From positions 310,001 to 374,000 of the forward strand of contig NZ_BSNK01000001.1 in NCBI RefSeq assembly GCF_030159955.1: a DNA stretch of 64,000 nt, written 5' to 3'. The DNA comes from Algimonas ampicilliniresistens (GTDB lineage: Bacteria; Pseudomonadota; Alphaproteobacteria; Caulobacterales; Maricaulaceae). Below are positions 36,458 through 64,000 of this stretch, one piece after another (positions within the stretch are counted from its first letter, which is position 1; each line of letters starts with the position of its first letter). The notes under the pieces are model-generated. The model searched no databases, was not told the DNA's origin, and saw only the letters and a list, made by a program, of their open reading frames with translations. Both the position numbers and the translations under genes were made by a program.

Positions 36458-36467
36458 GGCTTCGGCT

Positions 36468-47888: not shown

Positions 47889-49736
47889 ATGAAATTTTCT
47901 CGCCGCGAGCTTCTCCAAACTTCAGCTGCCGTGGTTGCCTCATCTGGCGTTCTTGCGGCAGGGTGTGCACAGCGTGCGCCTGTTGCGACTGAGAATTTCG
48001 ACGGTTTAGCGAAGACCCTCCTGGATAGCGCGAAGGATTTGATGCTTCGTGCCTACCCTGAAACGGCCTCCAGCGTCGGAGTAGATACGGGAGAGTATGT
48101 GGCGCTGAAGTCGCAACTGACCGATCGGTCCCCGGCCGGACAAGCCGCAATCGCAAACGATGTTCATACGCTTTTATCCGCGCTTCAAAAAGTCGATACA
48201 GACAAGCTTTCGGCTGACGTCGCTTTGGATATGGATGTCGTGACCTCCGTATTCGAACGCACGGCGGAAGGCTTTAACTATCCTTATGGCGATGTTGCGC
48301 TGTTGAATTACAACTGGTCTTATCGCAACAGTCCCTATGCCGTGGCTCAGAACACCGGTGCCTTCGTTGAAATTCCAAGCTTTTTGGATGCCTCCCATGC
48401 GGTTAAAACCACTGATGATGCGGATGCCTATCTGACACGTATGCAGGCCTATGCGGGCCAACTGGACGGAGAAACCGAACGTGTCATGGCTGATGGCGCC
48501 CGCGGCGTTGTTTTGCCGAATTTCCTCTTAGAGAAAACATTGGCGCAGCTTCGGGACGCGCGTGACCGATCGCCTGCAGAGTGGGGTATCGTGCAATCTA
48601 TCGTGACCCGCGCGAAAGATTTGGGCCAATATGAGGACCCCGCCGTGTCAATCGCAGCGCAAGACATTGTCCCAGCTTTGACCCGCCAGATTGAGGCGCT
48701 CGAGGCGCTTGCTCCCAAGGCGACGTCAGATGCGGGCGTTTGGGCAAAGCCGGACGGTGATGCCTATTATGATTGGACGCTCCGGTCGAGCACTACGACG
48801 AAGATGGGCGCGGATGAGGTCCATCAAATGGGTTTGGACGAGCTGGCTGACCTTCACGCGCAGATGGAGCCCATCCTCCAATCGGTTGGGTATACGAACG
48901 GGTCTGTTGGCGCGCGTATGTCGGCCTTGGGTGCGGATAAGCGCTATCACTTCAAGCCCGGCGATCCAGGCCGTGCTGAGATTATGAGTTTTATTGAGAA
49001 CACGGTCACCGACATTCGTAGCCGCATGCCTGAAGCGTTCGAGACACTCGTACCGGGCTTTCTCGAAGTTGTACGTATTTCTCCAGATGTGGAAGCCGGT
49101 GCTCCCGGGGCATATGGCGGTGCGGGGTCGATCGATGGGACGCAGCCCGGACATTTTTGGATCAATCTACGCTCGACCGATTTGCACAATAAATTCAACC
49201 TCGCGGACCTGACCTATCATGAAGCAATCCCGGGTCATGTATGGCAAGGGGAATATGCGTTCAAACAATCCCTCACACGCTCACTGCTGGCGTTTAACGC
49301 CTACTCCGAAGGGTGGGCGCTCTATGCGCAGCAGATCGCCGATGAGCTTGGTGTTTATGATGATTTCCCGGTCGGCCGACTGGGATACCTGCAATCCTTG
49401 GCCTTCCGTGCCTGTCGTCTGGTCGTGGACACGGGACTGCATGCGAAACGGTGGACGCGTGAAGAGGCTAATCAGTGGTTTGTCGAAAACAACGGTTCCA
49501 ACCCCGAAGAGGTGAGGGGCGAAGTCGATCGCTATTGCGCATGGCCGGGGCAGGCCTGCGGCTACAAGGTCGGGCATTCGGCGATTAATCGACTTCGCGA
49601 CAAGGCCAAAAGCGAATTGGGTGATCAGTTTGATTTCCGCCGTTTTAACGATGCACTTGTCCTAGGCGGCAATGTACCGATGACAGTCCTCGGTCGCGTT
49701 ATTGACGCCTACATCGCGCGAGAGAAACAAGCGTGA
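47889..49736 (+). CDS. DUF885 family exported lipoprotein (putative metallohydrolase)
   Basis: A 615-residue protein with a Tat-type lipoprotein signal (SRRELLQTSAAVVAS, lipobox AAGC, Cys26). The DUF885 core carries the family signature YHEAIPGHVWQ near residue 445, an HExxxxH-like zinc motif, and later AYSEGWALYAQQ and EVDRYCAWPGQACGYKVG. Members are predicted peptidases and are common in multiple copies in marine proteobacteria. 170 bp separate it from the hydrolase upstream. A peptidase role fits the neighbouring M14 and DadA genes but is not shown. Confidence 0.88.
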   Translation: MKFSRRELLQTSAAVVASSGVLAAGCAQRAPVATENFDGLAKTLLDSAKDLMLRAYPETASSVGVDTGEYVALKSQLTDRSPAGQAAIANDVHTLLSALQKVDTDKLSADVALDMDVVTSVFERTAEGFNYPYGDVALLNYNWSYRNSPYAVAQNTGAFVEIPSFLDASHAVKTTDDADAYLTRMQAYAGQLDGETERVMADGARGVVLPNFLLEKTLAQLRDARDRSPAEWGIVQSIVTRAKDLGQYEDPAVSIAAQDIVPALTRQIEALEALAPKATSDAGVWAKPDGDAYYDWTLRSSTTTKMGADEVHQMGLDELADLHAQMEPILQSVGYTNGSVGARMSALGADKRYHFKPGDPGRAEIMSFIENTVTDIRSRMPEAFETLVPGFLEVVRISPDVEAGAPGAYGGAGSIDGTQPGHFWINLRSTDLHNKFNLADLTYHEAIPGHVWQGEYAFKQSLTRSLLAFNAYSEGWALYAQQIADELGVYDDFPVGRLGYLQSLAFRACRLVVDTGLHAKRWTREEANQWFVENNGSNPEEVRGEVDRYCAWPGQACGYKVGHSAINRLRDKAKSELGDQFDFRRFNDALVLGGNVPMTVLGRVIDAYIAREKQA

Positions 49737-49860: not shown

Positions 49861-51042
49861 ATGAAAATCTGTGTCCTCGGGGCTGGGGTGGTTGGCGTAT
49901 CGACGGCGTTCGCTTTGTCACGATTAGGACATGAGGTTGAGGTGATCGATCGCGCGGATTGCGTTGCCTCTGGGGCGAGCCACGCCAATGGCGCTCAGCT
50001 GTCTTGGTCGCATACGGATCCAATGGCCAGCCCGGCTATTCTTGGAAAACTACCGGCTTTTCTTGTTGGCTTGGATCCGGCTATGCGAATCCACCTCTCA
50101 TTGAAACCAAATTTCTTGGGCTGGGGGCTTTCATTCCTCCGACATTGCACGCCAAGCTTATTTGAAGGTGGTCGCCGGAAGAGGCACCAACTGGCTGAAG
50201 ACTCTCGATTGGCCCTTTCAGAATTTGAACGTGATTTTGCTGGAGCAAAGATGCGGCGAACTGGGATAGGCAAAATCGTCTTAGCGCAAACACTGGGGCA
50301 GCAGCGCGCTATGCTGCAATCGGAAAAATATCACACAGCCGAACAATGTGTCGAGATTGAACCGGCACTCAAATCTTGGGGTGGGAATAATTTGGGTGGT
50401 CTTTATGCGCCTGACGATTGTGCGTTGGACACTGTCTATTTTTGCACCCGATTGAAAGATGAGGCGGAGACGAAATACGGAACGAAATTCCGGTTCGGGG
50501 AGACCATCCACTCCATTTCTACCAAACAAGGTCGCATAGACGGCGTTACTACAGAGACGGGTCATACGCGCTGCGACGCCGTCATAGTTTGTCTAGGTAA
50601 TGACGTGAACGCATTGGTTAGACCTCTTGGATTGTCTGTGCCTATCTGCTCGGTACGAGGCTATAGCGTAACGCTCCCTGCGAAAGCCCACGCTCCGAAA
50701 GCCAGTCTCACCGATCTGACGCACAAAATCGTTTTCGCCAATCTTGGTGATAAAATTCGTATTGCGGGCTTTGCTGATATTAACGCCTTGCAAGAGCGAT
50801 CTGCGCGAAGAGTTGAAACCCTGATCGATATTGCCCGAAATTGCTGGCCCGATATTGCCGACTATGAGGCTGAGCCTTCAGCCTGGACAGGTGCTCGGCC
50901 TATGACGCCGTCGGGTATTCCCGTGATCGGACCAACCTCTATTGAAGGCTTGTTCCTGAACGCTGGTCATGGTTCCCTTGGCTACACATTCGCGGCAGGC
51001 AGCGCGCAGCGCATTGCCAATCAGATCGGAGGCCCCTCATGA
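49861..51042 (+). CDS. dadA: D-amino-acid dehydrogenase (DadA-like FAD oxidoreductase)
   Basis: A 393-residue DAO-family flavoprotein. The N-terminal FAD-binding motif is GAGVVGVSTAFALSRLG followed by VEVIDR. GARPMTPSGIPVIG and AGHGSLGYTFAAGSA are the C-terminal DadA blocks. It oxidises D-amino acids to 2-oxoacids with electrons passed to the quinone pool. Its stop overlaps the start of the M14 carboxypeptidase gene, and the operon ends with an SLC1-type carrier. This suggests release, uptake and oxidation of D-residues, for instance from cell-wall peptides (inference). GAGGG precedes the ATG. Confidence 0.88.
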   Translation: MKICVLGAGVVGVSTAFALSRLGHEVEVIDRADCVASGASHANGAQLSWSHTDPMASPAILGKLPAFLVGLDPAMRIHLSLKPNFLGWGLSFLRHCTPSLFEGGRRKRHQLAEDSRLALSEFERDFAGAKMRRTGIGKIVLAQTLGQQRAMLQSEKYHTAEQCVEIEPALKSWGGNNLGGLYAPDDCALDTVYFCTRLKDEAETKYGTKFRFGETIHSISTKQGRIDGVTTETGHTRCDAVIVCLGNDVNALVRPLGLSVPICSVRGYSVTLPAKAHAPKASLTDLTHKIVFANLGDKIRIAGFADINALQERSARRVETLIDIARNCWPDIADYEAEPSAWTGARPMTPSGIPVIGPTSIEGLFLNAGHGSLGYTFAAGSAQRIANQIGGPS

Positions 51043-52271
51043 AAATATTGGCACCGCTTGGGCTGTGGTGTGCGCTCGCGTTGGCAGGCTGCACAACAGT
51101 TTCGATGGGTGACGAGCCTGCAGCGCCGTTGCTTTCCGGAGAAACAATCCTCTGTGAGACGGCCGATGTGGCCATCCGAACCGGATATAGTACGTCTCGC
51201 GCTACCGATTGTCAGACACTATCAAAGCGCCATTTCGTTTTGAACATTCAGCCCGAAGCGATGGTCGACCCGAATGGGATTTCGATCAACGATAGTGCTT
51301 GGTATGGATTCCGGGTGGCGCCCAAAACAAAAAGTTCTGTCCGGGTTCGACTCGATTATGAAGGTGGGTCACATCGCTACAATCCGAAAGTAAGCCGCGA
51401 TGGGCAAAACTGGACGCTGTTACCCTCAGATCGCGTGAAACAAATTTCCGACAGGTCTGTGGAATTAAACCTCAAGCCCGGTGCGGATCCTCTCTTTGTC
51501 TCAGCGCAGGAAATTTTCTCTCCTGCATCCCATTATGCTTGGCTAAGTAAAGTGGGTGAACGGACTGACGCGACTGTTTCGGAAATCGGGAGGTCTGTAC
51601 AAGGTAGGGCGCTACTACAAATCGACATTCAGACCGAGCTAGATAAGGAGAAACCCTATATTGTCCTGATTGGTCGCCAGCATCCGCCAGAAGTGACAGG
51701 GGCCTACGCCCTAATGTCTTTCGTCGAAACGATCCTGAATGGATCAGACTTGTCAGAGCAGTTTCTGGATAGCTTCAATCTGCTCGTTATACCGATGGTC
51801 AATCCTGACGGCGCGGAAAACGGAAATTGGCGGTTTAATATGGGGGGTACAGATCTCAACCGCGATTGGGGGCCGTTCACTCAACCTGAAACACAAGCCG
51901 TCCGATCAGCGTTGCAACGCTTTCACACAGGCGAAGATGACGTCGCATTTTTCACCGACTTCCACTCTACGAAACGCAATCTGCTTTATACGCAAGCTGA
52001 TGAGGAGCCGACAATCCCGGCCATGTTTACGCGAGACTGGATTGCCGCGGTGAACGCCAGATTAGATGAGGCGGAATATCCTTATACGCGGGAAGAGAGT
52101 CCGAATGGCGGGCAACCGATTTCCAAGAACTATATGTATGGAAGTTTCGGAATTCCTTCTATTACCTATGAGGTTGGCGACAAAACCCCTCGGCCTGCTA
52201 TCGCCGAGTCGGCCACAATATTCTCTGAGGAAATGATGCGGCTTCTATTGGCGTCACCAGACAATCCATGA
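51039..52271 (+). CDS. M14-family zinc carboxypeptidase lipoprotein (first copy)
   Basis: A 410-residue lipoprotein (lipobox LAGC, Cys18). An N-terminal beta-sandwich domain (~40-160, GGSHRYNPKVSRDG) is followed by an M14 peptidase domain. Zinc ligands are His215 and Glu218 (RQHPPE) and His309 (TDFHST), and the catalytic Glu378 is in TYEVGD. NPDG and DLNRDWGPFTQPE are M14 blocks. It should trim C-terminal residues from peptides or N-acyl amino acids in the periplasm. It is clearly paralogous to the protein at 60501-61670. GGAGG lies 6 nt before the ATG, which overlaps the dadA stop. Confidence 0.9.
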   Translation: MKILAPLGLWCALALAGCTTVSMGDEPAAPLLSGETILCETADVAIRTGYSTSRATDCQTLSKRHFVLNIQPEAMVDPNGISINDSAWYGFRVAPKTKSSVRVRLDYEGGSHRYNPKVSRDGQNWTLLPSDRVKQISDRSVELNLKPGADPLFVSAQEIFSPASHYAWLSKVGERTDATVSEIGRSVQGRALLQIDIQTELDKEKPYIVLIGRQHPPEVTGAYALMSFVETILNGSDLSEQFLDSFNLLVIPMVNPDGAENGNWRFNMGGTDLNRDWGPFTQPETQAVRSALQRFHTGEDDVAFFTDFHSTKRNLLYTQADEEPTIPAMFTRDWIAAVNARLDEAEYPYTREESPNGGQPISKNYMYGSFGIPSITYEVGDKTPRPAIAESATIFSEEMMRLLLASPDNP

Positions 52272-52405
52272 AGGACTGGCTCAACGATATCCACGCGGAC
52301 TTTGTAAACGACGTTCCAAAAGTCCAAGATGTACAAATGACTGCAGCCTTTGCACGCTGTGCTCTGAAACGCGGCGATAAGGGCCAAGGTAGTTATGCTG
52401 AATAA
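52268..52405 (+). CDS. Small ORF (45 aa) coupled to both neighbours
   Basis: A 45-codon frame beginning MKDWLNDIHADF and ending GDKGQGSYAE. Its ATG overlaps the M14 stop (ATGA) and its last codons overlap the start of the symporter gene (ATG at 52395). It fills the whole gap between the two genes. It is soluble, amphipathic, has one Cys and no signal peptide. I do not recognise a family. It could be a small partner of the symporter or a coupling cistron that keeps ribosomes moving into the next gene. Confidence 0.5.
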   Translation: MKDWLNDIHADFVNDVPKVQDVQMTAAFARCALKRGDKGQGSYAE

Positions 52406-53603
52406 GTTGATCGCGTTAGGGCTTTTCCTGGGGCTTTGTGTTGGCTTGGGCGCTGCCATGACCGGCAACCCGGTTCTGCAGGCTATCGCGCGAGAGTCGG
52501 CCCCGCTTGGCAAGCTATTCATCAATGCGATCAGAATGATCGTGATCCCTTTGGTTGTCGCGATTATATTTTCGAGTGTCGCGCGGCTTGGAGATATTAG
52601 GAAGCTTGGGACAATCGGGGGGAAAACCCTTGTATTCTATTGGGTGACGCTGGTGCCAGCGATCTTGATCGGCATGAGCGTCATGGCACTTGGTCTGCGG
52701 TTTGTGCCAGATATGGTCATGCCACCCGTCGATGACGTGCCAATTCCACAATTGCAGAGCATCACAGACTTTATTGTGAGTTTGATACCGCCCAACCCAA
52801 TTGCGGCGGCGGCTGACGGCGCAATCCTGCCTTTGATCGTTTTCACAGCCCTTTTCGCTGCGGCGGCAGGAACATTGCCGATCGAGCGCAGAGAGCGAAT
52901 GATCACAGCTGCAGAGGATATTGGGGAAGCGCTGATCAAGCTTGTTTGGTGGGTCTTGTTGGTTGCTCCCATTGGCGTGTTCGGACTAATCGCGCCGGCG
53001 ACCGCGCAAATGGGCTGGGGTATTATTCAAAGCCTTGGCGTGTTTATCATCAGTGTGGCGCTGGCACTTATACTGTTCGTGGCGGTTGTATTCGTCCCGC
53101 TCCTTTTAATCTTTGCAAAGCTGGGGCCCCTAAAGTTTTTCAAGGGCATATTAGGCGCTATGTCGATTTCCTTTTCCACGACCAGTACGGCTGCCGCGAT
53201 CCCGGTCACGCTGGAAGAGGTGACCAAGAATCTAGACGTGTCTGACACGACCGCAGATCTGCTCGTTCCGCTCGGAGCGTCGATCTTCCGCCCCGGAAGC
53301 GCTCTGTTTCAGGGTGCGGCTATCGTCTTTCTGGCACATATTTACGGTGTGCCCATTGCCTTGGGAACGGTTGGCGCTGTGCTCTTGGCAACCTTCCTCG
53401 TTTCGCTGACTGTGGCACCCGTGCCATCATCAAGTGTGGTGACGATGGCGCCTGCGCTTGAAGCTATCGGCGTGCCCGTTGCAGGATTGGCGCTCATGCT
53501 AGGCATTGACCGTATTCCAGACATGATGCGTAGTGCCGTCAACGTGATCGGACAGATCACGGCTGCGGTCATGGTCGATAAATCAGCGCCAAAGCCGGAC
53601 TAG
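52395..53603 (+). CDS. Dicarboxylate/amino acid:cation symporter (SLC1/DAACS), motif-divergent
   Basis: A 402-residue SLC1-fold carrier with 8 membrane helices and two re-entrant hairpins. HP1 reads SFSTTSTAAAIP. The final helix GIDRIPDMMRSAVNVIGQ keeps the Arg that binds the side-chain carboxylate in GltPh (Arg397) and Asp390, Asp394 and Asn401, but Asp405 is Gln. The NMDGT motif of helix 7 is replaced (PLGASIFRPGSALFQ). Those residues form sodium sites, so coupling is probably altered. An acidic substrate is still likely. It follows dadA and the M14 peptidase in one operon. Its TAG stop shares the CTAG of the convergent TetR gene. Confidence 0.87.
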   Translation: MLNKLIALGLFLGLCVGLGAAMTGNPVLQAIARESAPLGKLFINAIRMIVIPLVVAIIFSSVARLGDIRKLGTIGGKTLVFYWVTLVPAILIGMSVMALGLRFVPDMVMPPVDDVPIPQLQSITDFIVSLIPPNPIAAAADGAILPLIVFTALFAAAAGTLPIERRERMITAAEDIGEALIKLVWWVLLVAPIGVFGLIAPATAQMGWGIIQSLGVFIISVALALILFVAVVFVPLLLIFAKLGPLKFFKGILGAMSISFSTTSTAAAIPVTLEEVTKNLDVSDTTADLLVPLGASIFRPGSALFQGAAIVFLAHIYGVPIALGTVGAVLLATFLVSLTVAPVPSSSVVTMAPALEAIGVPVAGLALMLGIDRIPDMMRSAVNVIGQITAAVMVDKSAPKPD

Positions 53604-54877
53604 CCTTCTTTCCGCGCATACCCCGTCAGTAGAGGCTCAAAGTAAGCGGCAGACGCTGCGACAGGTTCTACAGCGGGGTTCCATGATTGGTGTAATGGAG
53701 TTGCCGCCAAGCGCCATTGGCTAGCCGAGAAGAGCGTACCCATAAAAAGGTTTTCTAAGGCGTCAAGATCGATCGATCTAGCCGATCCATCTAGCATGGC
53801 GATAGCGATTATCTCTGAGAAAGAGGCTCTCAAACGTTTCAACCTGGCTTCGATGACCTTTCTCTTAGCCGAGTTGACTGAACTGAGCAGGTTCAACCGG
53901 ATAAGGGGATCAAGGTCGGTAATGTGACCTTCGAACAATGTGCGCAAGGTTTGCTCGATCACAGTAATTGCGTCGAGTTGTGTGTCTCGCCTCGCCCGAT
54001 CCAAAGCATTTTCAATCGTGTCGCATGTGCGATCAAAACATCGCTCAAGCAGATCATCCTTATCGGAAATATAATAGTAGAAGGCTCCCCGGGTGACGCC
54101 CAGTTCCTTTGCAAGATCATTCAATGAGAGTTTCCGAAAGCCGGTTCTGTTCAGAAATCTGATCCCGGTTCGCAAAAAGGCATCGCGCTTAAGCTGGTTG
54201 CGAACAGATCGATCAAATATGGCTGGATAATGATCCAATTGCTGTCGGAGATTCGTACGACTAATGCGTCGATCTGGATCGAGAACGATCCCATTTCGTA
54301 AAAGGTCGCAAAGTCCGTCCATCGCGCTTTCATGATGCGCATTGGGCATGCTGGCAAACCAACGCGGTAGCCAATGTAGAAGGTTTAAAAGGAAAAAAGT
54401 GGCTGCCGCTGGCGACTGTACGTCGACGGATCCGTCATCAATTCCTGATTGAATGAACGCGCAAATGCGTTCGATCTGCGCATCATGCTTTGCCAATATT
54501 TCGGGGTTTGAGCTCTGTGAGACGGCCTCGATGTCAGACAGTAGCGGGGTTGGAGGCGTCCGTCCCGCAAGCGCGGCTGCATGCGTTTCTGCTCTGCGAC
54601 GCACAAGCGAAAGGATGCGCTCCAGACCTGTTCCAGCCTCTGAGGCTAAGTCCAACTCATGCGTATTGAACGCACAAGAGATAGATAGAGCTTCCTCCAG
54701 CAAGGCATCCTTGGATCGGAAGTGGTAGCTGATACTCGTTTTGCTTTTGCCGACCTCGTTCGCAATGTCTTCAAGGCGGGTGTCGTGGTATCCATCCGCA
54801 TTGAACAGCTCGACGGCGCGCGCGAGAATTTCTGCGCGTTTGCGAGATGTTTGTTTTTCAGAGCCGGTTTTCGTCAT
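53600..54877 (-). CDS. Tandem-TetR transcriptional regulator (two HTH units in one chain)
   Basis: A 425-residue protein, twice the normal TetR size. The first TetR HTH is at ~12-62 (RAEILARAVELFNADGYHDTRLEDIANEVGKSKTSISYHFRSK is spread across it, with YHFRSKDALLEEAL closing it). The second is at ~220-270 (GFRKLSLNDLAKELGVTRG…YYYISDKDDLLERC). Each is followed by a helical ligand-type domain. The second HTH is canonical; both keep the Y-x-F/Y recognition helix end. It acts as a built-in dimer. It is divergent from the TBDR operon and convergent with the symporter gene, and a short palindrome lies in the divergent promoter region. Confidence 0.9.
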   Translation of the reverse strand: MTKTGSEKQTSRKRAEILARAVELFNADGYHDTRLEDIANEVGKSKTSISYHFRSKDALLEEALSISCAFNTHELDLASEAGTGLERILSLVRRRAETHAAALAGRTPPTPLLSDIEAVSQSSNPEILAKHDAQIERICAFIQSGIDDGSVDVQSPAAATFFLLNLLHWLPRWFASMPNAHHESAMDGLCDLLRNGIVLDPDRRISRTNLRQQLDHYPAIFDRSVRNQLKRDAFLRTGIRFLNRTGFRKLSLNDLAKELGVTRGAFYYYISDKDDLLERCFDRTCDTIENALDRARRDTQLDAITVIEQTLRTLFEGHITDLDPLIRLNLLSSVNSAKRKVIEARLKRLRASFSEIIAIAMLDGSARSIDLDALENLFMGTLFSASQWRLAATPLHQSWNPAVEPVAASAAYFEPLLTGYARKEG

Positions 54878-54936
54878 GTCTTAAACTGCTTCATGAGGGG
54901 CCTTTAATTCTTTCGACATACGAACCTCTACACCAA

Positions 54937-54949
54937 AACTGAACCAGTT
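54937..54949. promoter_or_regulatory. Candidate TetR operator between the regulator and the TBDR
   Basis: AACTG-AAC-CAGTT is a 5-bp inverted repeat with a 3-bp centre. An outer ACATAC/GTATGT pair flanks it at wider spacing. It lies about 60 bp before the tandem-TetR start and 75 bp before the TBDR start. A TTGACT hexamer follows at 54962-54967. It is a short site, so chance is possible. Confidence 0.4.
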
Positions 54950-55024
54950 GTATGTTTTTTGTTGACTGCTTTCAGATTGGAGATAGGCTGAGTTCAAACA
55001 AGACGTATATTCAGGGGATTCACA

Positions 55025-58000
55025 ATGCGCGTTCAAGTTAAGCATTCTCTTATGCTGTCGACAGCCATGGTTATGGCTGCAGCGACTTCAGTTCATGCTC
55101 AGGATGTGACTGACGATGACGAAGTCATCACGACAGGGACCTTTATTCAAGGGGCGCGCGTCAATGAAGCCTTACCTGTGACGGTAGTTACTAGCGAAGA
55201 TTTGCAAAGTATTGGCTCGCTTGATGGGGAAGACCTCATTCGATCTCTGCCGTCAAATGGTGCCGTAGAGTTCAATGGATCTAACAATGTTACGCCCAAT
55301 AATGCGCGGGGAGACGTCGCCTCCATCAACCTTCGGTCCATTGGCTCCAGCGGGACATTGGTGCTGCTGAATGGTCGCCGGGTCGTAAACCATCCGGGCA
55401 CACAAGCCGAGCTTTCTACGCCTGTCACGACGGTCAATACGAACGCACTGCCTGTAGGCGGCGTGCGTCGTATGGAGGTCTTTAATGATGGTGCCTCAGC
55501 AATTTATGGCTCTGACGCCGTCGCTGGGGTCGTGAACATGATCCTCAAAGACAATTATGAAGGTTTGAGCTTCTCTGCCCGAACAGGCTTTGCTGAAAAT
55601 ACCGGGCTTGATGAGTCGAGCATCACGGTCACTGGCGGCAAGGATTTCGAAGGTGGAAAGACCAATGTTTCCTTCTTCGCTGAATATTCAAAGCGTGATG
55701 GGCAAATGGCGAGTGAGCAAGACTTCACCGCTGCTGCTGATCTGCGTCCTTTTGTTGTTGGGACAAGTTTTGAAGGTGACACTTCATTCGATAACCGCAC
55801 GACCGGCTCACCGTGGGGGCAGTTCACACTGCGAACGACATCCCGAACACGCGTTCGCCAGGACGGTACGACGCTTACGACATCAAGTGGTCGCTTCCAT
55901 ATCCAACCCACTAGTTTTTCTGGGTGCCGAGGAACGGCTGTTGGTAACCTCGCTGACCTTGGTCTGTGTATCGATGATAGCTCCCTTGATCGCGATCTGC
56001 GGTTCAATGATGACTTCGATAAGTCGATTGTGTCCGACCGTGACCGGGTAAATCTCTTTGCTTTTGTAAATCGTGATCTCGATAATGGTGTCCGCCATTA
56101 TAGCGAACTTGGTTTCTATTACGCCGAAACCCAACCGATTAACTCTAGCTCCTCTCCGCTCGGCAGCGGCGATATCGTGATCCCCGCCAATTATTATTAT
56201 AACCCGTTTGGTCCCGTGCGCTTTTCTGATGGCTCGCTCAATCCTAACCGCTTGCCCGGTCTCACTAATGTGCCGGATGAAGGATTGCCTGTTTTTGTCG
56301 ATTCTGGACGGTTTCGTCTCGATGATGTTGGCACGCGCAACGTGAACGTTGTCAATAAATCCTTCCGGGCTTTAACCGGCTTCAAAGGTGACTTTGGCGA
56401 CTCGGGCTGGGATTGGGATACGGCGCTGCTTTGGAATCATGCCGAAACAGACGACATCACGTCTAACCGCGTGTCGTCGACCCTTTTTCAGCAGGCATTG
56501 TTCAATGAAACACCTAACGTTTACAATATTTTCAATGGCGGAAATCAGAGCAACCCATCTTTCGGGGACGCGCCCGGTAATGATCGCAGCCTGATTGATC
56601 CTTTCATCATCTCGGTCGAACGTCTGACCACGTCGACGCTATTGCTCGCGGATTTTAAAGTGACAAATGGTGCCGCTTTTTCATTACCGGGCGGTCCGGT
56701 AGGGCTAGCCTCTGGCATGGAGATCCGTCGCGAAAGCTATACCGAAGACCGAGACGATCGCCTTGATGGCACGATTACATATACCAATGCTGTGACCGGA
56801 GCTGTGTCTGACTCTGATGTGGTGAATTCGACCGGTACGCCGGATTCAGAAGGGTCTCGCACTGTGGTTGCCATATTCGGTGAAGCCTCGGTGCCGCTTG
56901 TTAGCCCCGGAATGAATATCCCATTGGTGGATACATTCGATTTGCAATTAGCGGCGCGCTATGAGGATTACTCCGACTTTGGTGGATCTGGTATCAAGCC
57001 TCGCGTTGCTGCGGCGTGGAAACCGTTCGATGCCTTAAAACTAAGAGGCGCTTGGTCCAAAGGCTTCCGCGCACCCAACCTGCTAGTCATCAACCAAGCT
57101 GTCGGCCGATCCAACTTCCGCGAAGATTCTGCTTTCTGCGAAGCGGGCGTGCAAAACGGGACTTTTGCCGAGTTTGGCGATTGTATCGGCTTTTCGAACT
57201 CCACACTGGAACGTCGGGAAGTGGCTGACGATATTGGTCCAGAGGATGCGCGCAACATTACGTTTGGCGGTGTGTTTGAACCTCGCGGTCTCTCAGGTGG
57301 ACTTTCGTTCTTGAACAATCTGACGGTGACCGTTGACCGATGGGATATCAAACGTGAAAATGTTGTTGGTGTCTTCGGCGCAACAAATCAGATCAACTTA
57401 GACTTGGTGCTGCGCTTGAACGGTTCTTCTAACCCGAACGTTGTTCGGCTTGCCCCAAACGTAGACGATATTGCGTTTTTCCAAGGCACCGCGTTCGAGG
57501 CTAATCCTTTCGGAGCTATCGACTTTACGCGGGATACTTATGACAACAATGAAACCCAACGTGTGAAGGGCATCGATTACGCCGTCTATTACGATCTGGA
57601 CGGCACCCCGTTGGGCGATTTCGGTTTCAAATTCAACGCAACACAAATGACCGATTATTTTATTGGTCTATCTCCGGGCTCAATTCTCATTCGCGAAGCA
57701 ATCGATTCAGGTCTCATCTCGGACGATATTTCGATTTCGCAAGAAGGTGATATTGTTGGTATTAATGGCCAGCCTGAATGGCAAGCTAACGCCAGTGTCA
57801 GGTGGCGCACCGATAGCGGTTTTGGTGCCGGAGCCAGATATAGCTACACAGGTGACTTCATCGAGGAAGGCCCAGGTCTCGACCCCGATGGCAATCCGTT
57901 TGTCGTCCAAGACGTTGGCTTAACCAACCTTTACGCCCAGTATAGTTTTGACCGCAAAGGCGTGTTCGACAATACGCGTTTCAGAGTAGGCGTGAACAAT

Positions 58001-58108
58001 GCGTTCGACGTGAAACCGCCTCTTGCGGATGAGAACTTTGGGTACTTCAACGAGTATCACTCATCTCGAGGTCGCTACTTCTATTTCGATGTCAGTAAAC
58101 GATTCTAA
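55025..58108 (+). CDS. TonB-dependent outer-membrane receptor (large, ~1027 aa)
   Basis: A 1027-residue TBDR. The signal peptide ends SVHAQ, then a TonB-box-like region DDEVITTGTFIQG and a plug with INLRSIGSSGTLVLLNGRRV and YGSDAVAGVVNMIL. This is the class common in Sphingomonadales/Caulobacterales for peptides and plant or algal compounds. The barrel ends FYFDVSKRF. AGGGGA lies 6 nt before the ATG. It heads an operon with an exported hydrolase, an SLC13 carrier, an M14 peptidase and an exported lyase. The cargo is probably a compound carrying a dicarboxylic or amino-acid moiety (inference). It is divergent from the tandem-TetR gene. Confidence 0.93.
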   Translation: MRVQVKHSLMLSTAMVMAAATSVHAQDVTDDDEVITTGTFIQGARVNEALPVTVVTSEDLQSIGSLDGEDLIRSLPSNGAVEFNGSNNVTPNNARGDVASINLRSIGSSGTLVLLNGRRVVNHPGTQAELSTPVTTVNTNALPVGGVRRMEVFNDGASAIYGSDAVAGVVNMILKDNYEGLSFSARTGFAENTGLDESSITVTGGKDFEGGKTNVSFFAEYSKRDGQMASEQDFTAAADLRPFVVGTSFEGDTSFDNRTTGSPWGQFTLRTTSRTRVRQDGTTLTTSSGRFHIQPTSFSGCRGTAVGNLADLGLCIDDSSLDRDLRFNDDFDKSIVSDRDRVNLFAFVNRDLDNGVRHYSELGFYYAETQPINSSSSPLGSGDIVIPANYYYNPFGPVRFSDGSLNPNRLPGLTNVPDEGLPVFVDSGRFRLDDVGTRNVNVVNKSFRALTGFKGDFGDSGWDWDTALLWNHAETDDITSNRVSSTLFQQALFNETPNVYNIFNGGNQSNPSFGDAPGNDRSLIDPFIISVERLTTSTLLLADFKVTNGAAFSLPGGPVGLASGMEIRRESYTEDRDDRLDGTITYTNAVTGAVSDSDVVNSTGTPDSEGSRTVVAIFGEASVPLVSPGMNIPLVDTFDLQLAARYEDYSDFGGSGIKPRVAAAWKPFDALKLRGAWSKGFRAPNLLVINQAVGRSNFREDSAFCEAGVQNGTFAEFGDCIGFSNSTLERREVADDIGPEDARNITFGGVFEPRGLSGGLSFLNNLTVTVDRWDIKRENVVGVFGATNQINLDLVLRLNGSSNPNVVRLAPNVDDIAFFQGTAFEANPFGAIDFTRDTYDNNETQRVKGIDYAVYYDLDGTPLGDFGFKFNATQMTDYFIGLSPGSILIREAIDSGLISDDISISQEGDIVGINGQPEWQANASVRWRTDSGFGAGARYSYTGDFIEEGPGLDPDGNPFVVQDVGLTNLYAQYSFDRKGVFDNTRFRVGVNNAFDVKPPLADENFGYFNEYHSSRGRYFYFDVSKRF

Positions 58109-58128
58109 GCGGCTCGGCGGTCTAGACG

Positions 58129-59025
58129 ATGCCTTCGGCCTATTCGGCCAGACACAGTTTTTCATTCCGCCGCTTTTTGGCGGCGGGTGTACTGGTATTA
58201 TTTGCCTGGCTATCGGTCAGCCCAGTCTTTGCGCAATCTGTTCAAATAGGTGCGTTTGAGTTCTCAAACTGGGATGGTCCCGTCCTTCCAATACATTATG
58301 CGGAGCCGGACGGTCTTTCGCCGGACGCGCCCATCGTCATTGTCATGCACGGCGTTAACCGCAACGCTGATGACTATCGTGACAATTGGATCGACCTAGC
58401 AGATCAGTATGGTCTGGCAGTCTACGCACCCGAATTCTCAAAGGCAGATTTTCCGAAATCGAAAAACTATAATCTTGGCGGATTGTCGAATGCAGACGGG
58501 CGCGCATTTGATGCAATTGATCCGCTATTCGACCAGATCAAAGCGCGCCGTGGAGTCGATAATGCTAAATATTATCTATTCGGCCATTCCGCAGGGGCGC
58601 AATTCGTTCACCGCTTTGTCTATTTCAATTCTGACGCACGGTTTGAACAGGCCTACGCCGCCAATGCTGGTTGGTATACTTTACCCAACACGAATTGGGA
58701 TTGGCCTTATGGCTTAAAGCATGCGCCTGCGAAACCGATCGCTATGCCGGATATTCTATCTCGGGATCTCGTCCTTCTTCTTGGGGACCGGGATATTGAT
58801 CCGACAAGCCGTAATTTGCGCCAGACACCGGAAGCGAAGGCACAAGGTCAGCACCGTTTTGAACGGGGCTTCAATTTTCTAAAAGTGGCTAAGGAGCAGG
58901 CTGATAGGCTTGGCGTGCCCGCGAGATGGACATTTCAAATTATCCCGGATGTCGCCCATGACAATCACGGCATGGCTATAGCAGCTGCCGCTCAGATCGA
59001 TTCTCACCATACTGGAAAAGGCTAA
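58129..59025 (+). CDS. Exported alpha/beta hydrolase (PHB-depolymerase/esterase-like)
   Basis: A 298-residue secreted hydrolase. A signal peptide covers residues ~1-36 (ends PVFAQ). The fold shows VIVMHGVNRNADDYRDNW near the oxyanion hole, nucleophile elbow LFGHSAGAQF, a DRDID acid region and the His of PDVAHDNHGMA. The pattern resembles LpqC/polyhydroxybutyrate-depolymerase-type esterases. It starts 20 bp after the TBDR stop. It probably cleaves an ester in the imported compound in the periplasm. Confidence 0.85.
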   Translation: MPSAYSARHSFSFRRFLAAGVLVLFAWLSVSPVFAQSVQIGAFEFSNWDGPVLPIHYAEPDGLSPDAPIVIVMHGVNRNADDYRDNWIDLADQYGLAVYAPEFSKADFPKSKNYNLGGLSNADGRAFDAIDPLFDQIKARRGVDNAKYYLFGHSAGAQFVHRFVYFNSDARFEQAYAANAGWYTLPNTNWDWPYGLKHAPAKPIAMPDILSRDLVLLLGDRDIDPTSRNLRQTPEAKAQGQHRFERGFNFLKVAKEQADRLGVPARWTFQIIPDVAHDNHGMAIAAAAQIDSHHTGKG

Positions 59026-59029
59026 CCTC

Positions 59030-60496
59030 GTGACCTCAGACTCAAACGCGTCACGGGGGGTGTCTCAAAACATTGGTCTGGCAGCCGGGCCAATGGTTGC
59101 CATCCTGCTCTTCCTCTTTTTTAGACCGGATGGTTTGTCATTGACAGGGACGGCAACCGCTGCGTTCGCGGCATGGATGGCGATCTGGTGGTCGACGGAG
59201 GCGATCCCCGTGGCTGTCACCGCTTTTCTGCCTCTCGTTTTGTTTCCGCTGTTCGGCATTAATACTATGTCGGTCACAGCCTCATCCTATTCGCATCCAA
59301 TTATCTATCTCTTTTTGGGGGGGTTCGTCATCGCTCTGGCGATTGAGCGTTCGGGGTTACATGTGCGAGCTGCCTTGAAAGTTTTCCGAATGGCCGGCTT
59401 GAACGGGAAATCGCTTGTTGCTGGATTTATGGCGGCGGCCGCGCTGATCAGTATGTGGATATCCAATACCTCCACGACGCTGATGCTGTTGCCGATCGCG
59501 GCTTCAGTGACTTTGGTTATCCGCGATACGATGTCGGATTCGCTCTCCAAGACTGAGATTTCAAACTTTGAGACCTCCATGCTGCTAGGGTTAGCTTATG
59601 CGGCGACGTTGGGTGGGATGGCGACATTAGTCGGCACGCCGCCGAACACATTTATGGTCGGCTTCATGGCCGATAGCTATCAGATGGACATTGATTTCCT
59701 GCGATGGATGATTGTCGGTGTGCCGTTAGCCTTGATCATGCTGCCGTTGACGTGGCTCGTGCTGACCCGGTTCTTATATCCCGTCAATTTCCGGGCGACC
59801 CAACAGGCACGCTCTCATATTGATCATCTATATACCGGGCTTGGGACGATGAGCGTAGCGGAAAGGCGAACCCTTTATCTGTTCATTGCGCTTGTCTTGG
59901 GGTGGGTGCTTCGAAAACAAATCGTCGCCGTAACGGGCCTGACGGGTCTAACTGACTCCGGCGTTGCCATGGCAGCCGCTGTTGCGGCCTTCATCATTCC
60001 CAGCGGTAAGACAGGTGAGGGCTTGATCACTTGGGAGGACATGAAAAGACTGCCTTGGGGCGTCCTCATTCTCTTCGGCGGCGGTTTGGCTCTCGCAGGT
60101 GGCATGACGGCGACCGGGCTGACACTCTGGCTCGGCAAGCAACTCGCACCATTAGGCGAAATCAATATTGCTGTGCTCGTCGTCTGTTCAGCCTTGTTGG
60201 TAATTTTCCTGACAGAATTGACGAGTAACCTTGCGACGACGGCGACGATCTTGCCCGTCATGGCCGCGATTGCGGTCGAGACAGGTCAAGACCCGCTGGT
60301 ATTCGTTATTCCTGTTACCTTGGCAGCAAGTTGTGCCTTCATGCTTCCGGTCGCAACACCCCCCAATGCCATCGTCTTCAGTTCCGGGCGTGTCTCGATC
60401 CCGCGTATGATGCGTGCTGGTTTCGTCTTGAATATTATCGGCGTCATCGTTCTGTCGCTGGTGGCTCTAAAGCTTGTTCCTCTCGTATTTGGGTGA
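59030..60496 (+). CDS. SLC13/DASS-family dicarboxylate:sodium symporter
   Basis: A 488-residue inner-membrane carrier with ~11-12 membrane segments. Family motifs are ISNTSTT (first SNT), VGTPPNTFMVG, TSNLATT (second SNT position, here SNL) and VATPPNAIVF. VcINDY-type homologues import succinate, fumarate or related acids with sodium. The start is GTG at 59030, 4 bp after the hydrolase stop. In this operon it would take up a dicarboxylate released in the periplasm by the downstream lyase and peptidase. That is inference from context. Confidence 0.9.
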   Translation: MTSDSNASRGVSQNIGLAAGPMVAILLFLFFRPDGLSLTGTATAAFAAWMAIWWSTEAIPVAVTAFLPLVLFPLFGINTMSVTASSYSHPIIYLFLGGFVIALAIERSGLHVRAALKVFRMAGLNGKSLVAGFMAAAALISMWISNTSTTLMLLPIAASVTLVIRDTMSDSLSKTEISNFETSMLLGLAYAATLGGMATLVGTPPNTFMVGFMADSYQMDIDFLRWMIVGVPLALIMLPLTWLVLTRFLYPVNFRATQQARSHIDHLYTGLGTMSVAERRTLYLFIALVLGWVLRKQIVAVTGLTGLTDSGVAMAAAVAAFIIPSGKTGEGLITWEDMKRLPWGVLILFGGGLALAGGMTATGLTLWLGKQLAPLGEINIAVLVVCSALLVIFLTELTSNLATTATILPVMAAIAVETGQDPLVFVIPVTLAASCAFMLPVATPPNAIVFSSGRVSIPRMMRAGFVLNIIGVIVLSLVALKLVPLVFG

Positions 60497-60500
60497 CCCT

Positions 60501-61670
60501 ATGAGACGTCAATTAGCACCATATTTAGTCATGGGACTGTGGGTTTCCGCCTGCGCAACGACGCCGTCCTATCAGTGTGATCTCAATGCAGTGGAGTTCA
60601 AAACAGACTTCGAAAGCGGGCAATTGAACACCGTATCCTGCGATACGAACGGATACCGTATTGTGATCTCTCCGGAAAACACGCCTATCAACAATAGCCC
60701 TTGGTACGCCTTTGACATAATGGGCGCCGAGAACATCACCGTCCCGATTACCCTCGTCTATGAAGGTGGAACACACCGATATAGTCCGAAACTGCAGAAG
60801 GGTGATGGCAGTTGGCAAGATATTACGGACACTGTCTTTGTTACGGAGGATAAGTCTTCGGCTCGGTTTAACATCACGCCCGCGTCGGACTCAGTGCGGA
60901 TTGCGGCCCAGCCAATTATCGACACGCAAGATCATCTCGCATGGATGCGGGAAAAGGCGAGGCTGAATTTTGTCAAACTTGATCAAATTGGTCAGTCTGT
61001 CGAAGAGCAGCCAATTTTCAAGCTCGAGGAAGTGGATGCGCCTTTGGCTGACAAGCCATATGTGGTCATCATCGGTCGGCAACATCCGCCGGAAGTGACG
61101 GGTGCACAGGCGCTGATCCCCTTCGTTGATACGATTTGGAATGATAGCGCGTTGTCACAGCGGTTCCGGGACGAATATAATCTAATTGTCATTCCTCTGA
61201 TCAACCCTGACGGCGTGCTCAAGGGTCATTGGCGCCACAATGTTTCGGGTTTGGACCTTAACCGGGATTGGGGGCCATTTACTCAGCCAGAAACGCAAGC
61301 GGCTCAAAACGAGTTTCGACGGTTTGAATCTGGTCAAGATGACATCGTTTTATTCCTAGATTTTCACTCCACTTGGCGAAACCTCATTTACACTCAGACG
61401 GATGAAGAGCCGACAGTCCCTGCCGACTTCACTCGGAACTGGATTGACCGCGTCAAAGCTAAACTGACAGATGATGTCTACGCCTTCACGCGAGAAGCCA
61501 ACACAACATCGGACCGACCCGTGTCGAAGAACTACATGTACCGCACCTATGGAGTCCCAGCGATGACGTTTGAGGTCGGTGATGATACATCCGTTGCCGC
61601 CATTGAGGCGGCAAGCCAAGTGTTTGCCGAGGAGATGATGACATTGCTGCTGGAGGAGGCTTCGCGATGA
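60501..61670 (+). CDS. M14-family zinc carboxypeptidase lipoprotein (second copy)
   Basis: A 389-residue lipoprotein (lipobox VSAC, Cys18). The N-terminal beta-sandwich (~50-140, GGTHRYSPKLQKGDG) and the M14 domain match the protein at 51039-52271 along their length. Zinc ligands are His195, Glu198 (RQHPPE) and His289 (LDFHST); the catalytic Glu358 is in TFEVGD. It lies 4 bp after the SLC13 gene and overlaps the lyase start. It probably removes a C-terminal or amide-linked residue from the imported compound. Confidence 0.9.
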   Translation: MRRQLAPYLVMGLWVSACATTPSYQCDLNAVEFKTDFESGQLNTVSCDTNGYRIVISPENTPINNSPWYAFDIMGAENITVPITLVYEGGTHRYSPKLQKGDGSWQDITDTVFVTEDKSSARFNITPASDSVRIAAQPIIDTQDHLAWMREKARLNFVKLDQIGQSVEEQPIFKLEEVDAPLADKPYVVIIGRQHPPEVTGAQALIPFVDTIWNDSALSQRFRDEYNLIVIPLINPDGVLKGHWRHNVSGLDLNRDWGPFTQPETQAAQNEFRRFESGQDDIVLFLDFHSTWRNLIYTQTDEEPTVPADFTRNWIDRVKAKLTDDVYAFTREANTTSDRPVSKNYMYRTYGVPAMTFEVGDDTSVAAIEAASQVFAEEMMTLLLEEASR

Positions 61671-63091
61671 AAACGAGGCTGCTTGCACTTGCCGTCACAA
61701 CGCTTGTCTACGCTGCACCTAGCAGTTTCCTGTCTGCGCAGGCCTTACCCGATCAACTGAAAATCTCGGCGAAACCCGATACGATTGAGCGCGTATTTCT
61801 GCCCGATAATCGTAACCAACGCATTCTCGATATCGAAGCCGCCATTGCCAGAGCGCAGGCGGTTCATGGCGTGATCCCGCAATCGGCAGCCGATCACATC
61901 AGTGCAAAGGCCGATGTGAAATATGTTCCGCAAGAGGCGCTTGCGGCTGAATATAAGAAAACCAATCACCGTATGGTCGCGCTGCTCAATGTCTGGAGTG
62001 AGCATCTGGACTCGGAGGCCGCCAACTATCTGCATTACGGCGTTACGACTGTAGACATATACGACACAGTACGAGTTCTACAGGTGAGGGATAGTATTCT
62101 GCATCTGATCGAGGACATGCGAGAGATTGAAGTCGCTCTGCTCGGACTGGCCGAGCAGCATCGAGACACGGTCATGATCGGCCGAACGATCGGGCAACAT
62201 GCCTTGCCGATTACATTTGGTAAAAAGGTTGCCGTTTGGGCGGCGCAGAACCGTCGCAATATTGAGCGATTGAAAGAGGTGCTTATCCGTGTCGAGTCTC
62301 GCGGTGTCTTGAAGGGCGCGGTCGGTACTCATTTGGGATTAGGTCCCAAAGGACATCTGATAGAGCGGGATGTTTCTAAAGCTCTAGGTCTGTCTGACCC
62401 TGAACCAGCTGACTGGCACGGCTCTCGTGACGTGTTTGCCGAGTATGGTCAGGTGCTTGCTCTGATCTCGAAATCCTACGGCGCGATGGGCGCTGAAATC
62501 TTCCGTCTCATGGGTACAGATATTGGCGAACTGTCAGAACGTCAGCCGGACACGAATGTCGGCAGCAGCACCATGCCGCATAAGCGTAATCCGCGGATGC
62601 CAGAACGTGTAATAGCCCATAGCCGAAAGATTCCGCGTCTGGCTGAAATCCTGCTTGATGATGTCGAAAACACATTCGAACGTGACAACACCTCCGGCCC
62701 CAACCGTATTGTTGAAGAGATCAGCTTGGAAGCGTCCCGTATGATACGGGACACACGAAAAATGATCGATGTGATCGTCGTCGATGAGTCCAGAATGTTG
62801 GAGAGCGTCAATCTGACGGACGGCATGGTCATGGCTCAGCGTTTAATGCTGTTTCTATCCGAAAAAATCGCAAGATCAGAAGCGGAAGAGCGAGTTCGCA
62901 AAGCAGCGCAAATGTCCCTTGTTGAGGATTTGTCTTTCCGAGAGGCCTTGTTAAACGATCCTGTTCTCTCTGCTCATTTGCATGACCGAATAGACCAACT
63001 GTTGGACCCAAGAGGCTATCTAGGTCTCTCGTCTGAGCAGGTCGATCAGACGATTGAGTACGTAAAGCAGCGTCGGAAAACGGATCCGTAG
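61667..63091 (+). CDS. Exported fumarase/PurB-superfamily lyase
   Basis: A 474-residue protein of the fumarase/aspartase/adenylosuccinate-lyase superfamily. The catalytic loop signature is GSSTMPHKRNP (Ser300-Pro309), with HYGVTTVDIYDT (~123-134) and GQHALPITFG (His178) as the other active-site blocks. It is nearest to the PurB/PcaB branch. These enzymes eliminate fumarate, or the reverse, from C-N or C-O adducts and are normally cytosolic. This one opens with an N-terminal signal peptide (MKTRLLALAV…LSAQA), so it should act in the periplasm. GGAGGAGG lies 7 nt before the ATG, which overlaps the M14 stop. It is the last gene of the TBDR operon. Confidence 0.9.
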   Translation: MKTRLLALAVTTLVYAAPSSFLSAQALPDQLKISAKPDTIERVFLPDNRNQRILDIEAAIARAQAVHGVIPQSAADHISAKADVKYVPQEALAAEYKKTNHRMVALLNVWSEHLDSEAANYLHYGVTTVDIYDTVRVLQVRDSILHLIEDMREIEVALLGLAEQHRDTVMIGRTIGQHALPITFGKKVAVWAAQNRRNIERLKEVLIRVESRGVLKGAVGTHLGLGPKGHLIERDVSKALGLSDPEPADWHGSRDVFAEYGQVLALISKSYGAMGAEIFRLMGTDIGELSERQPDTNVGSSTMPHKRNPRMPERVIAHSRKIPRLAEILLDDVENTFERDNTSGPNRIVEEISLEASRMIRDTRKMIDVIVVDESRMLESVNLTDGMVMAQRLMLFLSEKIARSEAEERVRKAAQMSLVEDLSFREALLNDPVLSAHLHDRIDQLLDPRGYLGLSSEQVDQTIEYVKQRRKTDP

Positions 63092-63173
63092 ACTGACCTG
63101 AGCGAGTATCCTTCAACTCCCTATTGGGGCTCTCAAGCGAAGTTAGAAGTCTATCGGCCATCGCCTACGTCTT

Positions 63174-64000
63174 CTACTCCATTGGAAGAATGACTTCGAA
63201 CACGCTTCCGGACGGGGTTCTGGGCGCGTATCGGGCGTAGCCGCCATGTGCGAGTGCAATTTGCCTGACTAGGCTTAGGCCCACACCTGTTCCGTCTCTC
63301 TTGGTGGTGAAAAACGGTGTGAATATTCTTCCTTCAATGTCTTTCCGAACTCCATTTGCGCTATCGGTAACCCGCAGAACCAATAGACTGTCGGCACGAT
63401 CCTCTGCAGACAAAATGATCGGAGTCGTTTGGCCCGCCTCCAGAGTTGCGTCCCGAGCATTGGCGAGCAGATTAACTAAGGCTTGCTCAATCAAATTTGG
63501 GTCGAACCTCGAAAGCAGTTGTGGAGTGACCTCGATGATTTTTAAAGGCACTTTGTCGAGCGTGTCTGTCATGGATGCGGCAACTCGGCTTAGGAATGGG
63601 CCAATGAGCACATCCCTTTTTTCGGGCGCTGGAATGCGGGCAATCTTGCGATAAGATTCCGCAAACTTCTTCAGGCCAAGAGTGCGCCCTGCGATGGCGT
63701 GAACCGCCGACCTCAAATCTTGCCATTGTTCATGGGTTTCCGGCTCACTATTCAGCGGCATTTGGGCGACTGACAGCTCATCTACTAATTCCTTCGCCGT
63801 GTGCGCCATGGTGTTGACGGGCGTGACGGTATTCATGAGTTCATGAGTGAGTACCCGCACGAGATCGTGCCAGGCTTCAAATTCCGCTGCCCCTAACTCG
63901 GAATCGATATTTCTGATGGCGACGATTTTAAGGTCTGAGCCGCGCACGGTTAGCGCATTGGCGGTCAGTGTTATGCGATGAGTGAGGCCGTTATTTTCGG
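63174..64000 (-). CDS. NtrY-like sensor histidine kinase, C-terminal part
   Basis: The frame runs off the right edge, so the N-terminal sensor part is missing. What remains begins in the end of a PAS-like segment (ITLTANAL…VAIRNIDSEL), then the H-box VLTHELMNTVTPV with the phosphorylated His, N-box VNLLANARDA and the G-box RDGTGVGLSLVRQIALAHGG. The linked AWHDLVRVLTHE pattern is that of NtrY-type kinases. It is convergent with the lyase gene, 82 bp apart. Its response regulator is not in the window, and its link to the neighbouring operon is unknown. Confidence 0.9.
   Translation of the reverse strand, partial: ENNGLTHRITLTANALTVRGSDLKIVAIRNIDSELGAAEFEAWHDLVRVLTHELMNTVTPVNTMAHTAKELVDELSVAQMPLNSEPETHEQWQDLRSAVHAIAGRTLGLKKFAESYRKIARIPAPEKRDVLIGPFLSRVAASMTDTLDKVPLKIIEVTPQLLSRFDPNLIEQALVNLLANARDATLEAGQTTPIILSAEDRADSLLVLRVTDSANGVRKDIEGRIFTPFFTTKRDGTGVGLSLVRQIALAHGGYARYAPRTPSGSVFEVILPME

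Follow-up and report, generated by a model that had tools for sequence, protein, structure and literature searches.

A conserved operon with an exported lyase in Algimonas ampicilliniresistens, tentatively read as degrading an acidic isopeptide-linked nutrient in the periplasm

Which nutrient would require an outer-membrane receptor, an exported hydrolase, a dicarboxylate carrier, a carboxypeptidase lipoprotein and an exported lyase of the aspartase/fumarase superfamily to be made together? The question is raised by five genes in a stretch of 64,000 nucleotides from Algimonas ampicilliniresistens (contig NZ_BSNK01000001.1, positions 310,001 to 374,000; the whole stretch is termed the window). 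Comparative analysis of these genes reveals that the five-gene set is a conserved unit and not a chance arrangement. Under local control and fed by its TonB receptor, the operon may serve to dismantle in the periplasm an acidic oligomer joined by isopeptide bonds. A beta-aspartyl chain containing both L and D residues would be the likeliest substrate, followed closely by a gamma-glutamyl compound; this is a tentative reading, somewhat short of an even chance.

Layout and conservation of the operon

The operon and its control region comprise the following features, in window positions. Domain and family calls were made with Pfam and NCBIfam, the scores of the latter being judged against curated cut-offs, and N-terminal export signals were judged by eye throughout, not by signal-peptide software.

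53600-54877, - strand, tandem-TetR regulator, divergent from the operon (Pfam TetR_N, two stretches)
54940-54966, + strand, conserved putative operator/promoter site TGAACC-N3-TGTAT-N8-TTGAC (shared 9-mers, alignment, genome pattern scan)
54962-54967 and 54984-54989, promoter-like TTGACT and TAGGCT (read by eye)
55025-58108, + strand, TonB-dependent outer-membrane receptor (Pfam barrel 9.5e-23, plug 3.5e-13)
58129-59025, + strand, exported PahZ1-like serine hydrolase, putative beta-aspartyl amidase (Esterase_PHB 7.3e-8; signal peptide by eye; PDB relative 6ve6)
59030-60496, + strand, SLC13/DASS sodium-coupled di/tricarboxylate symporter (Na_sulph_symp 1.6e-66; TIGR00785)
60501-61670, + strand, M14 carboxypeptidase lipoprotein no. 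2, CCP-like, lipobox V-S-A-C, Lys343 at the probable specificity position (Peptidase_M14 5e-21)
61667-63091, + strand, exported lyase of the aspartase/fumarase superfamily, PurB/PcaB branch (Lyase_1 1.2e-38, ADSL_C 1e-13)
61667-61744, + strand, predicted lyase signal peptide, residues 1-26 (by eye)

Of the five open reading frames on the + strand, the first four lie 20, 4 and 4 bp apart and the last pair shares an ATGA overlap, exactly as in an initial annotation made from the sequence. That annotation placed the five genes correctly; its limits of 55025 to 63091 were too narrow, as the tandem-TetR gene and the conserved site belong with the operon too. It had also passed over the residue that may mark the M14 enzyme as acidic-specific, the three genes upstream (a DadA-like dehydrogenase, a second M14 enzyme and an SDF-family symporter) and the regulator with its site.

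Systematic survey of the order was done with a profile built on seven lyases and run on 201 genomes, the window's own genome counted, with an orthologue defined by E 1e-90 or better. A lyase orthologue was found in six of them, the window's own genome included. All six cluster with the tandem-TetR gene, the PahZ1-like hydrolase and the SLC13 carrier, in four genera and two families, and five of the six clusters (the window, L098, L103, L104 and L118; L, G and f numbers denote our loci, genomes and families) also hold the TonB receptor and the M14 gene. Each of these four other cassettes (L098, L103, L104, L118) has a receptor 62-65% identical to that of the window. In family f17, probably sphingomonads and of the same class, two of 199 genomes, G184 and G435, carry the lyase, clustered with SLC13, TonB and M14 genes; the hydrolase gene lies inside the lyase cluster in G184 (L064) and at another place in G435. 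A set confined to this genome had been named beforehand as grounds for giving up the proposal, and the recurrence in other genera and families removes that objection.

Sparse matches in the class had first hinted that the lyase was a one-genome oddity, a view overturned by the six order and two f17 genomes. Separately, DUF4886 proteins adjoin the SLC13 gene in two cassettes where no lyase was seen (L119 17850-18734 and L110 10557-11378), and could be a substitute.

The control region is equally recurrent. Tandem-TetR homologues lie in the clusters L098, L103, L104, L118, L119 and L146, and the motif TGAACC-N3-TGTAT-N8-TTGAC is common to cassette intergenic regions, as found by shared 9-mers and alignment. 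With up to two mismatches allowed, it has a single match, at the cluster, in six of seven genomes (G000, G1046, G1070, G1080, G1065, G022), and the match at the cluster is the sole one in the window's own genome. In the seventh, G962, the cluster site is off by one base in length and missed by the pattern, and two chance-like matches with two mismatches each lie elsewhere; a reversed control pattern gave one match across the seven genomes. As most of the sites had served to define the motif, the informative observations are the lack of a second site in the six genomes and the mismatch-free site in G022, a genome known beforehand from no more than a short piece of this region. The tandem-TetR protein probably binds this motif and controls the operon from one site.

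The exported lyase and the enzymes beside it

The lyase has a Sec-type N-terminus with S-A-Q-A before residue 27; residues 1-37 are modelled with a confidence (pLDDT) under 50, and matches to signal-less relatives mostly start near residue 38 or later. Export-type N-termini, either Sec-like or lipoprotein-like and with no recognisable common sequence, are present in 8/8 lyase orthologues. Among class relatives, 28 of the 51 other matches (those with a locus) were checked for export, and none has a hydrophobic N-terminus, the highest score being 1.75 versus 2.39-2.83 in the five exported lyases scored. The exported lyases form a single clade with 100/100 support. Export of the lyase is thereby predicted in each of these eight orthologues, where a cytosolic location had been set beforehand as evidence to the contrary. 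As the unit is conserved and export-type N-termini occur in 8/8 orthologues versus 0/28 relatives, a catabolic pathway in the periplasm, as first annotated, is well supported, with the dicarboxylate carrier in further agreement. To our knowledge, the known members of this superfamily are cytosolic or mitochondrial and an exported member is unusual; none was present among the matches listed in a search of the open-access literature, to which all our literature negatives refer.

The superfamily fold and the signature loop with the catalytic Ser are present. The lyase scores under the curated cut-off of every NCBIfam model listed: the best is XcbD, 3-sulfopropionylcysteine synthase (316.1 bits, cut-off 600), besides PurB (TIGR00928, 271.3 bits, cut-off 326.2) and PcaB (TIGR02426, 211 of 355.75; NF006554, 283 of 595). 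No identity over 32% was found in 40 relatives, and G184 alone exceeds 37% among 385 class genomes. A scan of genome contigs with the single lyase returned four distant loci of 26-33% identity, none informative, and tblastn against plasmids returned 86 records, all under 60% identity, the best listed at 38%. The window's own genome holds three further, weaker superfamily matches (27-30% identity). A misannotated housekeeping PurB was considered and ruled out, given the separate exported clade and these other superfamily matches. The His of the G-R-T-H motif, found in 3c8t and most relatives, is Ile or Leu in 8/8 exported lyases, and is absent also from solved PcaB (Trp there) and Tad1. The leaving group may therefore differ, a carboxylate (ester) or a thiolate being possible. 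By analogy, fumarate is a plausible product.

The best solved relative of the hydrolase is 6ve6, poly(aspartic acid) hydrolase-1 (PahZ1; E 1.7e-61). Its G-H-S-A-G, Asp and His align with those of 6ve6 as a Ser-Asp-His triad in a PHB-depolymerase-like fold, which we take to be the catalytic triad. PahZ1 of Pedobacter is described as cleaving beta-amide and not alpha bonds between Asp units and as tolerating D-Asp at all but one of its four subsites (PMC4456602), and by homology the window enzyme is a putative beta-aspartyl amidase. An SDF-family symporter lies in the same cluster as the hydrolase in L064, L102, L134 and L132 (where the contig end cuts it), and a gamma-glutamyltransferase (GGT) does so in L078 and L102. 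L078 and L102 unite the hydrolase, TonB, M14 and GGT, with an SDF symporter in L102 and none in L078; L132 and L134 hold TonB, M14, the hydrolase and an SDF-like gene, the L134 receptor being split over two frames. The initial annotation had its substrate de-esterified; since the nearest solved relative is a beta-aspartyl amidase and the gene keeps company with SDF symporters or GGT, that ester chemistry is probably wrong.

The M14 enzyme carries the zinc ligands His-Glu-His, the carboxylate-binding Arg/Asn-Arg and the catalytic Glu expected of a CCP-like member; the zinc site and carboxylate-binding residues are intact in 25/25 M14 proteins, and Lys343 is invariant in the same 25. Its model lies nearest to bacterial CCPs and human CCP5, with carboxypeptidase O (CPO) lower down among many CPA/B-type chains. 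Lys343 may sit at the position of the arginine responsible for the acidic specificity of CPO: Arg255 is described as conferring that specificity, any basic residue at 255 being read likewise (PMC9925722). The enzyme may be an acidic-specific exopeptidase, as judged from its residues. The SLC13 protein exceeds the cut-off of TIGR00785 (285.7 bits, cut-off 198.6) and belongs to DASS/SLC13, with SLC13A5, SLC13A2, SLC13A3 and VcINDY as solved relatives. Typically, SLC13 relatives transport di- and tricarboxylates, while SDF relatives transport glutamate, aspartate and C4-dicarboxylates.

Links to acidic D-amino acids

Upstream of the regulator, three genes belong with the operon more loosely (49861-53603):

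49861-51042, + strand, DadA-like FAD-dependent D-amino-acid dehydrogenase-like protein, no export signal seen (Pfam DAO 2.6e-53; NCBIfam PRK00711 319 bits, under cut-off 383)
51039-52271, + strand, M14 carboxypeptidase lipoprotein no. 1, a paralogue, lipobox L-A-G-C (Peptidase_M14 1.6e-22)
52395-53603, + strand, SDF-family (GltP/DctA-like) acidic amino acid/dicarboxylate symporter (Pfam SDF 1.1e-93; nearest NCBIfam model GltP, under cut-off)

The two M14 lipoproteins of the window are 42-43% identical. A profile built on nine M14 proteins gave matches in 27/201 order genomes and 14/398 phylum genomes, and 30 neighbourhoods (L090-L119) were inspected, with the M14-bearing genomes G1030, G1043, G1053 and G1101 left out. 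A receptor of the same family lies in 28 of the 30, L115 and L116 being the exceptions. Beside the set described above (cassette A), a second recurrent set, cassette B, consists of TonB, DadA-like, M14, D-aminoacylase-type lipoprotein and SDF symporter genes. All five occur in L090, L091, L096 and L099, and also in L092 and L097 with a shortened D-aminoacylase or DadA frame; the stretch of L109 has no SDF gene and that of L095 no DadA gene. A LysR-type gene, 34-43% identical to the LysR of L112, lies near cassette B in L090, L091, L092, L095, L096 and L109. The window trio is a partial cassette B. In another family, G184 (L064) and G435 (L077) have the genes of A and B around one receptor and one M14 gene, with no SDF gene in the G435 stretch. 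In L112 and L113, which come from another family of the phylum, the TonB-M14 pair adjoins DgcN and DgcA, both above curated cut-offs, and GltS (88% identical between the two loci). The further flanks of two cassettes (L139, L140) gave no match to the reference set.

Several neighbouring observations are recorded in their own right. The TonB-M14 pair occurs alone, with largely the same neighbours, in four members of family f54 (L079-L082) with genomes of about 1.3-1.4 Mb, and so appears to be kept in streamlined genomes. A protein of about 870 aa, 47-60% identical to the L090 copy, lies near TonB-M14 in L090 (4515-7124), L095 (15435-18023) and L100 (7161-9782), the L090 copy having its own M14 domain. 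Right after the merged G435 cassette follow a fused hydantoinase/oxoprolinase A-B protein (L077 13639-17193) and then acetyl-CoA synthetase. In the window, a BD-FAE esterase and a DUF885 protein (46501-49736, + strand) lie immediately 5' of the DadA-like gene, and a DUF885 homologue (29%) is also near the PahZ1-like gene in L131. A large-type NAD-dependent glutamate dehydrogenase of 1617 aa (39826-44679, - strand), about 5 kb from the trio, fits glutamate catabolism, although its position may be a coincidence. Further upstream, 30522-39803 (+ strand) holds in a row genes for MacB/FtsX-type exporters, two membrane-fusion proteins and two outer-membrane efflux proteins.

What the pathway may degrade

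In the proposed acidic-isopeptide pathway, the receptor, from its family, would import the oligomer to the periplasm, where the PahZ1-like amidase, by homology, would cut internal beta-amide bonds and the CCP-like M14 lipoprotein, with its intact zinc site and Lys343, would trim C-terminal acidic residues. The PurB/PcaB-type lyase would act by elimination on an N-linked 1,2-dicarboxyethyl (aspartyl) group, and the C4-dicarboxylate so released, probably fumarate, would be imported by SLC13. Where cassette B co-occurs, free acidic L- and D-amino acids would be released, imported and oxidised, and the tandem-TetR protein probably governs the operon through its one site. Adenylosuccinate lyase removes the N-(1,2-dicarboxyethyl) group from the carboxamide SAICAR, and each C-terminal Asp of a beta-aspartyl chain is an N-(1,2-dicarboxyethyl) amide, that is, the same group. 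A beta-aspartyl chain is the most economical reading, as it fits the hydrolase, the M14 enzyme, the symporters, the D-amino-acid genes and the fumarate-type lyase together. In nature, such a chain might come from aged peptides rich in isoaspartate or from an acidic polymer not yet described. A bolder version, which we consider improbable, makes the enzyme a true peptide lyase, performing beta-elimination at the backbone C-N bond of the terminal aspartyl unit to give fumarate and an amide end, as polysaccharide lyases cut sugars without water. In that case the lyase, the PahZ1-like hydrolase and an acidic-specific M14 enzyme would amount to a natural route devoted to polymers of beta-aspartyl units or to aged peptides rich in isoaspartate.

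Several observations weigh against this acidic-isopeptide pathway. In G1065 (L146), the sixth lyase genome, the M14 gene lies on a separate contig (L138) without the set; G022 has the TetR, TonB, hydrolase, SLC13 and M14 genes and no lyase orthologue; and in five of the eight f17 genomes with a PahZ1-like gene (G432, G435, G496, G521, G537) that gene lies apart from M14, the G432 contig ending nearby. The window trio is without the D-aminoacylase of cassette B, for which the genome has only a 36% homologue elsewhere. The hydrolase has a further match in LpqC (E 7.4e-45), whose annotation is putative PHB depolymerase, and ester substrates are thus conceivable. The alignment of Lys343 with the Arg of CPO comes from a weak match over the C-terminal half, best-ranked at sequence E 0.0085 and stretch E 0.42, in a search that also returned unrelated ING5 chains at E 0.07; this column holds Cys or Ser in the four solved bacterial CCPs compared, so that Lys343 may be particular to this M14 group. 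The Ile/Leu in place of the G-R-T-H His speaks against a plain N-succino amine leaving group, and we know of no natural poly-beta-aspartate.

A gamma-glutamyl target made of D/L-Glu, such as poly-gamma-glutamate or a muropeptide, with the M14 enzyme acting like CCP5 on glutamate, is the leading rival, though unlikely. The PahZ1-like enzyme indicates aspartyl units, and the fumarate-type lyase would have no obvious role on glutamate. GGT was not noticed by BLAST in lyase-bearing cassettes, and neither were DgcN and DgcA, although no search was aimed at these two.

An ester analogue, which comes nearest to the initial idea, is rather improbable. Here beta-polymalate or malyl/citryl esters would be opened by an esterase, the lyase would free fumarate with a carboxylate leaving group as PcaB does, and SLC13 would import malate and fumarate. 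The PHB-depolymerase fold, the SLC13 carrier, the closeness of the lyase to PcaB, Tad1 and 3c8t with the G-R-T-H His missing as in solved PcaB and Tad1, and the DUF4886 genes beside SLC13 in L110 and L119, presumably SGNH-type hydrolases, are in keeping with it. Yet the best relative of the hydrolase is an amidase, its clustering with M14 (L078, L102, L132, L134) and with SDF symporters (the four loci given above) points elsewhere, and the M14 and D-amino-acid genes would be left unexplained.

A loose collection of genes for unrelated nutrients under a common regulator, to which we assign a small chance, would account for the variable gene order and strand, for G022 without lyase and for G1065, where M14 is elsewhere and the TonB genes near the lyase (L146) are similar only weakly (25%). 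The retention of hydrolase, SLC13 and TetR beside 6/6 lyases in four genera and two families argues otherwise.

The chance is smaller still for succinated thiols or amines, of the S-(2-succino)cysteine type or as succinated glutathione or peptides. XcbD is the best NCBIfam model at 316 bits, GGT and a carboxypeptidase could trim a glutathione adduct, and the lyase class I enzyme 2SL is described with such activity in other bacteria (PMC9706529). The XcbD cut-off is nevertheless 600, and this reading leaves no place for the PahZ1-like and D-amino-acid genes. The yxe-type acetyltransferase and ABC importer are not among the annotated window genes: the ten proteins at 49861-63998 include no acetyltransferase, ABC importer or monooxygenase, and do not contain the clustered set of at least three of YxeK/2SL, YxeL, YxeMNO, YxeP and YxeQ.

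A chelator pathway (iminodisuccinate (IDS), ethylenediamine disuccinate (EDDS) or aspergillomarasmine type), with the lyase yielding fumarate and D-Asp and DadA oxidising the latter, is very improbable: IDS and EDDS lyase chemistry is known and 3c8t is from Mesorhizobium sp. BNC1, presumably a chelator degrader, but the PahZ1-like, M14 and D-aminoacylase genes would not be needed.

Comparison with known systems

The lyase of 2SL type in yxe loci resembles the window lyase by description: both are catabolic members of one superfamily, and 2SL releases fumarate. Its partner yxe genes were not seen in the window, and export of 2SL is not mentioned in the part of the source consulted (PMC9706529). 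From the PurB/PcaB/Tad1/XcbD branch the window lyase differs by its export, by Ile/Leu in G-R-T-x (His in 3c8t, Trp in PcaB) and by its sub-cut-off scores. The M14 enzyme differs from CCP (M14D) and CPO in being a bacterial lipoprotein that adjoins a TonB receptor. The DgcN-DgcA genes for catabolism of acidic D-amino acids adjoin the TonB-M14 pair in L112 and L113 and form no part of the window's cassette; dgcN is described as the central gene of a pathway that irreversibly racemises acidic D-amino acids and their amides (PMC12363236).

A close parallel is PahZ1 of Sphingomonas sp. KT-1 and Pedobacter sp. KP-2, an exported serine hydrolase of the same family as the window enzyme, whose tolerance of D- and L-Asp fits the D-amino-acid genes near the operon. 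We know of no natural role for polyaspartate-cleaving enzymes, which were isolated with a synthetic polymer. The thermal polyaspartate used with PahZ1 is synthetic, and a term search of the main text returned neither "operon" nor "gene cluster" (PMC4456602). No PahZ1 gene cluster was found in the open-access literature searched, nor anything on isoaspartyl TonB systems among the matches listed. The initial remark that no system with this set had been described is accordingly not contradicted by that literature, except that PahZ1 itself is described. Overall, an operon with regulator, receptor, exopeptidase, lyase and carriers suggests that an acidic nutrient of isopeptide-like kind occurs in nature, and would give PahZ1-type enzymes a natural setting; it would tie such a nutrient to D-amino-acid turnover and narrows the proteins concerned to a few.

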